From Clostridia bacterium (lineage in GTDB: Bacteria > Bacillota > Clostridia > Oscillospirales > Acutalibacteraceae), in the NCBI GenBank assembly GCA_017517135.1, contig JAFXAK010000027.1, positions 1 to 61,819 on the forward strand: a DNA stretch of 61,819 bases. The letters run 5' to 3'. A program made the position numbers and the translations under genes. The notes under the pieces are model-generated. The model saw only the letters and a program-made list of their open reading frames with translations, did no database searches and had not been told where the DNA came from. Position 1 is the stretch's first letter. Each line of letters begins with the position of its first letter. Positions 25,589-27,879 of the stretch are shown here, piece after piece.

Positions 25589-25665
25589 GCGCCGGTAGCT
25601 CAGTTGGATAGAGTGACTGGCTACGAACCAGTAGGTCAGGGGTTCGAGTCCCTTCCGGCGCGCCA
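25589..25665 (+). tRNA. tRNA-Arg (anticodon ACG)
   Basis: 77 bases. Acceptor GCGCCGG pairs with CCGGCGC, discriminator G, and CCA is encoded. The D arm GCTCAGTTGGATAGAGT, anticodon arm with CTACGAA (anticodon ACG, decoding CGN after A34-to-inosine editing) and T loop GGTTCGAGTCC are all present. A terminator follows at once. Confidence 0.97.
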
Positions 25666-25670
25666 AAAAA

Positions 25671-25705
25671 ATCGACAATCTTCGATAGAAGGTTGTCGAT
25701 TTTTT
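25671..25705 (+). terminator. Terminator of tRNA-Arg
   Basis: ATCGACAA and TTGTCGAT form the outer stem (25671-25700) with CTT/AAG inside, followed by TTTTT. Confidence 0.85.
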
Positions 25706-25707
25706 AT

Positions 25708-25892
25708 CCAATCCGAAGGATTGGTATGTAATCTCGCGTAGCGAGCATGTAATCGCCGAAGGCGTATGTAATCACGCGTCAGCGTGTATTTCCTTCGGAT
25801 TGATTACATACATTTCTGCGAAATGATTACATACACAACTTCGTTGTGATTACATTCCGTCTTCGACGGATTTCATACAATGCTTCGCATTG
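25708..25892. repeat. Hairpin array A (constant word ATGTAAT, reversed to ATTACAT in the second half)
   Basis: Nine small hairpins of different sequence: 25708-25724 (CCAATCC-gaa-GGATTGG), 25733-25745 (CTCGC-gta-GCGAG), 25754-25764 (CGCC-gaa-GGCG), 25773-25786 (CACGC-gtca-GCGTG), 25791-25799 (TCC-ttc-GGA), 25811-25825 (CATTTC-tgc-GAAATG), 25834-25848 (CACAAC-ttc-GTTGTG), 25856-25870 (TCCGTC-ttc-GACGGA) and 25878-25892 (CAATGC-ttc-GCATTG). Units 1-4 are followed by TATGTAAT or CATGTAAT; units 5-9 are linked by GATTACATA-type words, the reverse complement. GAA loops in the first half become TTC loops in the second, so the unit orientation flips in the middle. Confidence 0.85.
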
Positions 25893-25899
25893 ATTTTCG

Positions 25900-25927
25900 T
25901 TGCTTGAATTTGCTATGTCTTTATGAT
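25900..25927 (+). promoter_or_regulatory. Possible promoter of the four-helix-bundle gene
   Basis: TTGCTT (25900-25905), 16 bases, TATGAT (25922-25927), immediately after the last hairpin of array A. Confidence 0.35.
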
Positions 25928-25951
25928 ATATTATTTGCAGGAGGTGAGCTT

Positions 25952-26302
25952 ATGAAAGATAATCCTTTAATGAAATATTCCGAGCAATTAGCATCGGAGA
26001 TTGACAAATTGTGTAAATCATTAGAGAAAAAAGATAATTCAAATGCAATATTTCAGATTCGGAAATCTTCATCAAGTGTTTTTGCTAATATTTCAGAAGC
26101 TCAATACCCCCAAAGTCTTCCTGATATGTTGTCTAAATTTAAAATAGCACGAAAAGAATGTGTTGAAACTGAAAGCTGGCTGAAGTTATTATATTCAGTA
26201 AACGCTATTGATGAAGCAACATTCAAAAAATACAGAAATCTTTGTGGCAGAATACAAAGAATGTTAACATCGTCTTGTATAACTATTGAAAAGAAAATTT
26301 AA
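25952..26302 (+). CDS. Four-helix-bundle protein (S23/IVP family, related to Avd of diversity-generating retroelements)
   Basis: 116 residues from ATG 25952 with the strong site GGAGGTGAG upstream. The family signature is present: FQIRKSSSSVFANISEAQ, then KIARKECVETESWLKLL and a C-terminal helix. The family (PF05635-type) was first seen as proteins encoded inside 23S rRNA intervening sequences; the retroelement accessory protein Avd is a structural relative that binds nucleic acid and reverse transcriptase. No rRNA or reverse transcriptase is in the window. The gene directly follows hairpin array A, which suggests, without proof, that the array or its RNA is its target. It converges on an XRE repressor. 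Confidence 0.8.
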   Translation: MKDNPLMKYSEQLASEIDKLCKSLEKKDNSNAIFQIRKSSSSVFANISEAQYPQSLPDMLSKFKIARKECVETESWLKLLYSVNAIDEATFKKYRNLCGRIQRMLTSSCITIEKKI

Positions 26303-26337: not shown

Positions 26338-26383
26338 AAATAACCGCACTTCGTATTTTAAGAATACGCAGGTGCGGTTATTT
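26338..26383. terminator. Bidirectional terminator between four-helix-bundle and XRE genes
   Basis: AAATAACCGCAC pairs with GTGCGGTTATTT, with CGTATT/AATACG inside. It overlaps the stop codon of the XRE gene. Confidence 0.8.
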
Positions 26384-26599
26384 GTAATCTTTTTTAGTGT
26401 CAGTCAGTCCGATGATGTAGTCTGCAGATAAATTATAAAATTGGCAGAGCTTTATTAAATCGTCAATTTTAAGTTCTGCACGTCCTGCTTCTATGTGGTT
26501 ATAGCCTTGCTGTGACTTGTTTAATAATTTGCCAAGCTCGGATTGAGTTAAGTCACTGTCTTCCCGCAGGTTTCGCATACGCTCTCTGTAATCAGTCAT
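26378..26599 (-). CDS. XRE-family transcriptional repressor
   Basis: 73 residues from ATG 26599, chosen for GGAGGG eight bases upstream. A single HTH_3 domain: RMRNLREDSDLTQSELGKLLNKSQQGYNHIEAGRAELKIDDLIKLC, then NLSADYIIGLTD. It is similar in length and layout to the protein at 56764-56964 (both end LSADYIIGL or VSADFILGL). It is divergent from the lipoprotein gene, and two copies of a palindromic operator lie between them, so it probably represses that gene and itself. Confidence 0.88.
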   Translation of the reverse strand: MTDYRERMRNLREDSDLTQSELGKLLNKSQQGYNHIEAGRAELKIDDLIKLCQFYNLSADYIIGLTDTKKDYK

Positions 26600-26635
26600 T
26601 GTAAAGCCCTCCTTCCAATGTTTATATGCTACCAC

Positions 26636-26680
26636 ACTCAAATATTGAGTATTGACAATTACTCAATATTTGAGTATTAT
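26636..26680 (+). promoter_or_regulatory. Promoter and paired operators of the lipoprotein gene
   Basis: ACTCAAATATTGAGT (26636-26650) and ACTCAATATTTGAGT (26661-26675) are exact reverse complements, and each is itself palindromic (ACTCAA/TTGAGT). Between and over them lie TTGACA (26652-26657), a 17-base spacer that contains the second operator, and TATTAT (26675-26680). A repressor bound here would cover the whole promoter. The divergent XRE protein is the obvious candidate. Confidence 0.8.
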
Positions 26681-26760
26681 TGTTAGTGCAGTATGTTATT
26701 TGTTTTGATATGAATAACAGTCTGACAATAATTTTTAAGAAGAAAGAATGAGGGTTTGAA

Positions 26761-27879
26761 ATGAAAAGAATTGTTGCATTGTCACTGATACTTGTTATGG
26801 CTTTGTCGCTTTTCGGTTGCGGAAAGAGTAAGGCTGCAGGTGCATTTGATGATCTTGTTAAGGCGATAGGTACTGTTTCTCTTGAATCAGAAGCTGCAAT
26901 TGTTGAAGCTGAAAATGCTTACAATGCACTTACTGATGAAGAAAAGGAATCTGTAGCAAAAAGCAATACCAGTCTTGCAGAAATGCGTGCGGAATATGAA
27001 CGCCTGGTTGAGCAGGATGCAAAAATCAAAGCAGTAGTTGCTCTTGTTGATGCAATCGGTGAAGTTACTGTAGATTCAAACGAGGCAATTTCAGCTGCTG
27101 AGGCAGCATATGAAGCTCTTTCCGAAGAAGAAAAGGGTATGGTTGCAGATGTTGCACAAAAGCTTGCTGAATACAGAGAGAAATACGATACAGAAATGGT
27201 CGCTGCCCGTGTTGAGGAAGTTACTAATGCAATTGATGCTATCGGAACTGTCAGTGTTGCAGGAAAAGAAAAAGTAACAACAGCAAGAGAACTGTATGAC
27301 GCTCTCTCTGATGCAGAGAAAAAGCTTGTAACCAACTTCAGTGCCCTTGAGGATGCTGAGGCAGAGTTAGAGAAGCTTTGGGAAGCAGAAAAGCAGAAAA
27401 TTGTTGATACATATAGTAAAAAATTTGGTATTGACAAGGATCCTGTTGAAGGAATTTCTTGGTATATGCACGATAATATGCCCAATTACATTGATACCAG
27501 ATGTTATATCATTCCCTATATCGGTGTAAAAGGAAATAATAAATGGATTTGTATAAGATATAACTATACTGCTGATAGCTGGATTTTCTGGGAAACACTT
27601 ACCATTATGGTTGATGGTGAAAAATACTTTAAGAATGTCGGATATTATAATACGGTAAGAGACAATGATACAGAAGTTTGGGAATATTATGACGAATGTC
27701 TTAATTATAACCAGGCTATGGATTCATCTGAAATAAAAATGCTGAAAGCAATTGCTGAATCAGATGAAACAATCATCCGTTTCCAGGGGGACGATTATTA
27801 TCATGATTTATATGTTTCTCAAAAGGATAAACAGATGATTAAGGATACTCTTACTCTCTATGAGGCAATGATTGGCTGA
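26761..27879 (+). CDS. Lipoprotein with three helical repeats and a unique C-terminal domain
   Basis: 372 residues. The lipobox LSLFGC gives Cys20. Three tandem repeats of about 60-65 residues follow, each with the pattern V-x-x-I-x-x-IG-x-V, then AEAAYEAL-S-EEEK, then a Leu/Glu helix; the best conserved cores are AYNALTDEEK, AYEALSEEEK and LYDALSDAEK. Such repeats resemble extracellular helical spacer modules. Residues about 220-372 are a globular domain rich in Tyr and Trp with no family I recognise. The gene is divergent from, and probably repressed by, an XRE regulator, and it has its own terminator. Confidence 0.8.
   Translation: MKRIVALSLILVMALSLFGCGKSKAAGAFDDLVKAIGTVSLESEAAIVEAENAYNALTDEEKESVAKSNTSLAEMRAEYERLVEQDAKIKAVVALVDAIGEVTVDSNEAISAAEAAYEALSEEEKGMVADVAQKLAEYREKYDTEMVAARVEEVTNAIDAIGTVSVAGKEKVTTARELYDALSDAEKKLVTNFSALEDAEAELEKLWEAEKQKIVDTYSKKFGIDKDPVEGISWYMHDNMPNYIDTRCYIIPYIGVKGNNKWICIRYNYTADSWIFWETLTIMVDGEKYFKNVGYYNTVRDNDTEVWEYYDECLNYNQAMDSSEIKMLKAIAESDETIIRFQGDDYYHDLYVSQKDKQMIKDTLTLYEAMIG

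Follow-up and report, generated by a model that had tools for sequence, protein, structure and literature searches.

What is a string of short, mutually different hairpins joined by a nearly constant word, and why does it lie between a tRNA gene and a small protein-coding gene? The question was raised by a 61,819-nucleotide stretch of DNA (hereafter the window) from a member of the Acutalibacteraceae (contig JAFXAK010000027.1), in which a sequence-only reading had described positions 25708–25892 as an array of nine hairpins that reverses orientation at its midpoint. The answer that we favor, with a probability of roughly 0.7, is that a small mobile element, lacking a transposase gene, has inserted directly behind a tRNA-Arg gene and that the array forms its folded left end. 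The locus comprises the following features.

25589–25665, plus strand: tRNA-Arg(ACG), the anchor gene (ARAGORN, Rfam tRNA)
25665–25705, plus strand: intrinsic terminator in the gap between tRNA and array, with 18-nt arms that are 94% complementary and a T-run
25708–25724, no strand assigned: hairpin 1, whose 5′ part (25709–25720) is also complementary to the centre
25726–25772, plus strand: forward words ATGTAAT, starting at 25726, 25747 and 25766, with hairpins 25733–25745 and 25754–25764 in between
25773–25786, no strand assigned: GTCA-loop hairpin, the last in the forward half
25791–25802, no strand assigned: centre, TCCTTCGGATTG, the exact reverse complement of 25709–25720 in hairpin 1
25803–25876, minus strand: inverted words, ATTACAT at 25803, 25826 and 25849 and ATTTCAT at 25870
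25811–25825, 25834–25848 and 25857–25869: hairpins among the inverted words
25878–25892, no strand assigned: terminal hairpin
25904–25932, plus strand: promoter-like TTGAAT – 17 nt – TATATT, a consensus match only
25952–26302, plus strand: PF05635 (23S_rRNA_IVP) gene, 116 aa, four-helix bundle (Pfam, 8.5e-23)
26378–27879: HTH gene (minus strand) and lipoprotein-like gene (plus strand), extra DNA at the window site

The array proved real, with one correction: its perfect hairpins number eight, not nine (stems of 4–7 bp, loops of 3–4 nt, within 25708–25892), as the centre at 25791–25802 has no perfect hairpin of its own. Hairpins alternate with the near-constant word in the order ATGTAAT three times, centre, ATTACAT three times and ATTTCAT once. 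The loops read GAA, GTA, GAA and GTCA before the centre and TGC, TTC, TTC and TTC after it, a flip that bears out the reversal at the midpoint; GNA triloops are very stable in DNA. Also as first described, the array sits between the tRNA gene on its 5′ side and the gene for a four-helix bundle, here assigned to PF05635, on its 3′ side. It begins 2 nt past the tRNA terminator and ends 11 nt ahead of the promoter-like site. Predicted folds gave z-scores of −5.5 for the array RNA and −7.3 for the minus strand as DNA, and none of 200 shuffles was equally stable in either case. A two-word pattern matched 18 times in the source genome, which carries arrays at five places (the window and four more), and the reversed pattern matched 0 times. 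The fold scores and the absence of the reversed pattern together argue that the array exceeds chance. At Rfam gathering thresholds, the tRNA was the sole match in the window.

The sequence-only reading placed similar strings in other Clostridia, and they do occur there. A covariance model built from 39 arrays, which are near-palindromic so that one array can match on both strands, matched in 14 of the 27 genus genomes and in 11 of the 13 that are at least 90% complete. Scanning named genomes with an exact three-word pattern, which biases the sample to regular arrays and makes array numbers lower bounds, we found arrays in many metagenome-assembled genomes (MAGs) of rumen and gut Clostridia among the matches listed. 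Pattern matches in Prevotella, other Bacteroidetes and further groups appeared by eye to be plain tandem repeats without the array plan and were not used. In that plan a terminator and hairpin 1 lead into words with hairpins; then follow a centre that complements hairpin 1, the inverted words with their own hairpins, and a last hairpin. Hairpin 1 and the centre covary among relatives, reading CAATCC/GGATTG or CAAGCC/GGCTTG.

Pairing is retained throughout. Across 51 distinct arrays, among the matches listed, 470 of 481 arm positions in first halves (0.977) and 755 of 768 in second halves (0.983) were Watson-Crick, versus 0.826 and 0.593 when 3′ arms were swapped among segments of equal arm length. 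The 95 first-half segments held 24 distinct 5′ arms, and the 134 second-half segments 36. Stems thus vary with pairing kept while linkers stay nearly fixed, as the sequence-only reading proposed; it had allowed that the array might be chance sequence, found nowhere else and with stems that do not covary, and instead arrays occur elsewhere and covary. Loop type in the same arrays, again among the matches listed, follows the half in which a hairpin lies: 61 G..A, 1 T..C and 33 other loops before the centre, and 0 G..A, 105 T..C and 29 other loops after it. When six strict hairpins in a row were required, 41 sources yielded 6 clusters, with none from the window, and 20 shuffles yielded 0; these clusters were not used for counts. 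Two arrays (G009:C32 and G018:C103) have grown by repeated identical hairpin units (AATGCTTCGCATT and AAGGCTTACGCCTT, respectively), and at one locus a third array (L063:2521–2654) follows the same plan with another word, GTGAAAT/ATTTCAC.

Are the arrays always near tRNA or PF05635 genes, as the first reading asked? Both matter, and neither is invariable. Among the matches listed, 49 of the 51 arrays had at least 110 nt of upstream DNA; 30 of these had a tRNA within 400 nt upstream, 28 of them at 31–40 nt from the tRNA end, a gap wide enough to hold a terminator. Of 255 positions drawn at random from the same loci, 5 had a tRNA. The tRNAs are of many kinds. No tRNA was recognised within 400 nt upstream of the other 19 of the 49 arrays, some of which, by eye, follow decayed-looking tRNA 3′ ends. 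PF05635 is the first downstream ORF in 8 of the 51 TATGTAAT arrays among the matches listed, some of which have little downstream DNA.

PF05635 proteins are known by structure and from rRNA inserts; to our knowledge, none has a tested function. AlphaFold2, run on the window protein as a single sequence, gave a best pLDDT of 93.6, with three of five models above 90 and two below 60. Foldseek matched the model to 2rld (E 1.9e-5) and 2gsc (E 8.5e-4), the structures of which contain five chains each, and more weakly to Avd (4dwl; E 0.024, TM 0.77), which is a pentamer. Relative to its counterpart in G010:C9, the window gene has a dN of 0.095 and a dS of 1.09, pointing to purifying selection.

The association between protein and word is heritable. 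Each of the three PF05635 genes of the source genome stands behind a tRNA, what by eye is a terminator, and an array whose word differs from gene to gene: TATGTAAT (C21), TATATCAT (C17) and ATTATTCAT (C22). Among 78 PF05635 hits in the genus (from 79 rows, the second piece of one gene being dropped), inverted words were significant upstream of 40, and 23 had a tRNA. The nearest PF05635 neighbor belonged to the same word family for 53 of 58 proteins (shuffled mean 9.3, maximum 21), the remaining 20 of the 78 having been dropped for lack of a family, a doubtful one or a length below 85 aa; protein identity was 0.71 within and 0.40 between word families. The array word and the PF05635 clade are co-inherited. 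The promoter-like site, which recurs as TTGATT – 17 – TATATT in the G010:C9 copy, lies within 90 nt of the ORF in 12 of the 46 elements that have inverted words upstream and in 4 of the other 32, and the figure of 12 of 46 weakens it as part of a general element plan.

Many other PF05635 genes start right after the stop codon of an unrelated gene and are preceded by a short direct array with a period of exactly 7. At lag 7, at least 20 of 24 positions matched upstream of PF05635 in 26 of the 78 genus hits and 11 of the 30 best phylum hits; lags of 4–6 and 8–12 gave 0–1 regions each. The same test on other ORFs gave 25 of 740, an upper figure in that the controls were drawn from these loci and some of them lie near arrays. 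Where the upstream heptad was strong (32 of 108 hits, with two that contain runs of N excluded), its inverted copy, at least 10 nt long, lay behind the ORF in 21 of 32 elements, against a mean of 3.6% and a maximum of 13% with swapped partners, and direct copies did so in 3 of 32. In the other 11 no inverted partner of at least 10 nt was found within 220 nt behind the ORF. These loci thus take the form W – ORF – W′, in which W is the word array and W′ its reverse complement. Of 16 matched loci on named plasmids, 12 were read by eye: the form is plain in seven (five from Nostoc, and those of Dolichospermum and Euhalothece) and partial on plasmids of Bernardetia, Treponema, Monoglobus and Nostoc UHCC 0870, and in one, from Anabaena cylindrica, the repeats form no inverted pair. 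Two phylum relatives (L366 and L374) lie inside 23S rRNA genes, and at a third locus (L377, genome G071) an RNase P RNA gene, which the Rfam model matches end to end, holds a whole PF05635 gene within a heptad stem. On the A. cylindrica plasmid pANACY.01 (L389), the PF05635 gene lies between cas2 and cas1. A figure legend of a CRISPR survey names 23S rRNA IVP (PMC10910872), possibly on account of cas-neighboring genes such as this one.

Comparison of shared sites points to insertion. Genome G002 carries two copies, behind tRNA-Thr and tRNA-Ser, that share one block of 643 columns at 80% identity, beginning inside the terminator and ending at the PF05635 stop; no other match was found between the two 5-kb stretches. 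At the orthologous dapF – tRNA-Arg – DUF site, five species have five different contents:

Window: TATGTAAT array and PF05635, with the HTH and lipoprotein-like genes
G015: TGAAATA-type array and PF05635
G002: TATATCAT array without a gene
G010: TGATAT array and the last codons of PF05635 (by eye)
G013: short heptad-like remnant

The HTH and lipoprotein-like genes of the window (26378–27879) had no match at this site in the four syntenic species. A second site, the V-ATPase B–D junction, was surveyed in 16 of 17 genomes, one having no V-ATPase B gene in reach; by eye, nine species have full, ORF-less or remnant elements and seven are empty:

PF05635 with heptad edges: four species, the ORF being broken in G016
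W..W′ without an ORF: three species, two of them identical
Short heptad remnants: two species
No heptads, 3–63 nt: seven species

The heptads at this junction are CGGAAT/ATTCCG in G009 and CGTAAT/ATTACG in G012 and G025; both sides differ alike, as if one side had been copied from the other. Neither a transposition event nor a target duplication nor an intermediate was observed.

We propose that the window element is a member of a large PF05635 family edged by arrays of W and W′, in which the basic unit is a word of 7–8 nt, repeated directly and in inverse, and only some families have hairpins between the words. The plain form, W – ORF – W′, occupies sites behind stop codons or within genes for 23S rRNA or RNase P RNA. 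The tRNA form, to which the window copy belongs, may be written a – W – a′ – W′ – ORF, with a′ complementary to a; here a is hairpin 1, and where a family has no hairpins it is the 5′ arm of the terminator of the local tRNA. Its order would be terminator, array of words and hairpins, promoter and PF05635 ORF. W and W′ could pair on a single strand, with the hairpins extruded between the words, and the PF05635 protein, a putative ring, would bind the folded structure and so protect, process or copy the element. We infer this binding from the five-chain solved relatives and from the fold of Avd, which joins a reverse transcriptase in a ribonucleoprotein. If W and W′ repeatedly served as templates for each other, by copying or conversion, the words could stay alike and the palindromes perfect as the sequence drifts. 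No enzyme able to move the element is encoded between its ends. The insertion of a mobile element keeps part of the earlier reading, namely stem variation, spread among Clostridia and the tRNA and PF05635 neighbors, and departs from it in that the array is best seen as an insertion end rather than a free-standing object. Several observations sit poorly with it: the tRNA form has W′ before the ORF, so the simple picture of inverted repeats has to be modified for the window; among the matches listed, PF05635 comes first in a minority of arrays (8/51) and a tRNA is absent from others (19/49); and 11 of the 32 plain elements lack an inverted partner.

Other explanations draw on the same observations. 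It is possible, though in our judgment unlikely, that these are retroelements in which PF05635 is an Avd-like helper, a reverse transcriptase acting in trans copies the element, and heptads arise by its slippage. The fold of Avd and the ribonucleoprotein of diversity-generating retroelements are consistent with this, as are the repeat expansion and the joint change of repeats, and RVT_1 occurs in 40 of 61 sampled genomes with PF05635 and 106 of 238 without (by eye; genome size not controlled). However, the source genome (94% complete) has no match to RVT_1, a model that may miss distant reverse transcriptases, and a further 20 PF05635 genomes also lack one (21 of 61 in total), including the one-contig G079 with five PF05635 matches. 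Co-occurrence therefore does not support a reverse transcriptase as a requirement, and the mover would be a host function or a yet-to-be-found factor. An RNA switch strikes us as improbable. It would have a pair with either the terminator arm or a′ to control read-through from the tRNA into PF05635, whose product would act as an autoregulator by binding the words. Families of the tRNA form that differ in sequence do share the pseudoknot order a – W – a′ – W′, the predicted fold is strong, and in four of five hairpin-less cases the centre holds an inverted copy of 10–17 nt of the tRNA end or terminator arm (in the fifth, the longest inverted copy is of the words). Yet the window and G010 copies have a promoter-like site past the array, so transcription of the ORF could be independent of the tRNA, an argument itself countered by the 34 of 46 inverted-word elements without such a site. 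The strand with G..A loops switches at the midpoint, which is odd for one RNA, and many arrays are not followed by PF05635. We ranked a stand-alone structured RNA lower on similar grounds: the array lies between a terminator and a promoter-like site, and its loop type changes strand at the midpoint.

Three loci (L063, L118 and L144) have several arrays each with small genes in between. Pairs of barnase-like ribonuclease and Barstar genes lie between hairpin arrays on two MAG contigs (L118:4890–5690 and L113:386–1228); a lipoprotein-like gene and others of no assigned kind alternate with arrays at L063; at L118, the 3′ end of tRNA-Trp and the start of its terminator recur before the second array; and a membrane protein encoded beside arrays in two genomes is 76% identical over 85 aa. 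Such multiple arrays with intervening genes, the recurrence at L118 and the shared membrane gene are what one might expect of an integron-like cassette attachment site used by a site-specific recombinase at tRNA 3′ ends. We hold this to be highly improbable, in that the plain heptad elements that follow stop codons or sit in RNase P RNA do without a tRNA, and word and PF05635 are co-inherited. Finally, the palindromes and heptads could be functionless by-products of replication slippage and strand switching, slippage having been proposed for heptameric repeats (PMC4692102), and the expanded units in G009, in G018 and on plasmids would fit. The constant architecture, the co-inheritance with PF05635, the purifying selection and the repeated insertion at the same sites leave this explanation with hardly any probability.

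We are evenly divided on a broader proposition, that PF05635 elements are a distinct class of transposase-less mobile DNA, consisting of one ring-forming protein and edge arrays of 7–8 nt that evolve in concert. Such a class would explain much of the heptameric repeat content of bacteria that lacks an explanation; the 23S rRNA intervening sequence (IVS) would be one niche, and the window array a tRNA-adapted form with extrudable hairpins. The sequence of the word would be free, and its complementarity not. Heptad repeats were seen in Cyanobacteriota, Bacteroidota, Spirochaetota and Bacillota. If true, DNA would spread by an unusual route, as an element that has no transposase of its own and whose ends evolve jointly, with small genes of barnase-like and Barstar type lying between its arrays. 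The element would link three unexplained things: PF05635 proteins, heptameric repeats and the strings of hairpins that follow tRNA genes in Clostridia of gut and rumen. PF05635 in rRNA inserts and heptameric repeats are already known; what seems new is that a single mobile unit joins the two, and that a hairpin form exists at tRNA genes. Heptameric repeats were described as over-represented, with no detailed literature as of 2015 (PMC4692102). No link of PF05635 with heptads or hairpin arrays was found in titles and the starts of abstracts (bioRxiv and most subscription journals lay outside this scope, and a description elsewhere is possible) or in excerpts of works including PMC10910872, PMC11270868, PMC10053308, PMC4692102 and PMC3116915. 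Excerpts from the literature on the PF05635 protein do not mention word arrays.

How do these elements compare with known systems? CRISPR arrays have a constant repeat of at least about 20 nt with variable spacers; here the constant part is a 7–8-nt word and the variable part is palindromic. STRR repeats are tandem 7-mers in intergenic DNA. A 2008 study by Elhai of small dispersed repeats in Nostoc reportedly describes short hairpins among heptamers, a point of likeness to the arrays here. The heptameric or STRR repeats of cyanobacteria, Xanthomonas and Helicobacter are likewise intergenic tandem 7-mers, sometimes in inverted pairs (PMC4692102); excerpts of that paper make no link to PF05635 or to a mobile unit, whereas here the repeats flank PF05635, including on Nostoc plasmids. 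A period of 7, the STRR criterion, was found in 26/78 genus hits and 11/30 best phylum relatives; in the window a word has 7 nt and one variable base besides, and hairpins separate the words. The stems of REP sequences are conserved, whereas those of the arrays vary (24 and 36 distinct 5′ arms) on a near-constant linker. Common to REP, BIME and REPIN sequences with their RAYT and to our arrays are palindromes in inverted order over intergenic sites (PMC3116915). With the Avd of diversity-generating retroelements, the window protein shares its fold, and in contrast to such retroelements the source genome (94% complete) gave no match to an RVT_1 reverse transcriptase. IVSs of 23S rRNA have complementary ends that enclose an ORF, and are excised by RNase III. 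They involve the same protein family and are inserts carrying a PF05635 ORF, and two phylum relatives (L366 and L374) lie in 23S rRNA genes. The window copy differs from them in standing behind a tRNA terminator rather than in an rRNA gene and in having both W and W′ ahead of the ORF, so that no complementary ends enclose it, whereas 21 of the 32 plain relatives do have complementary ends that enclose the ORF.
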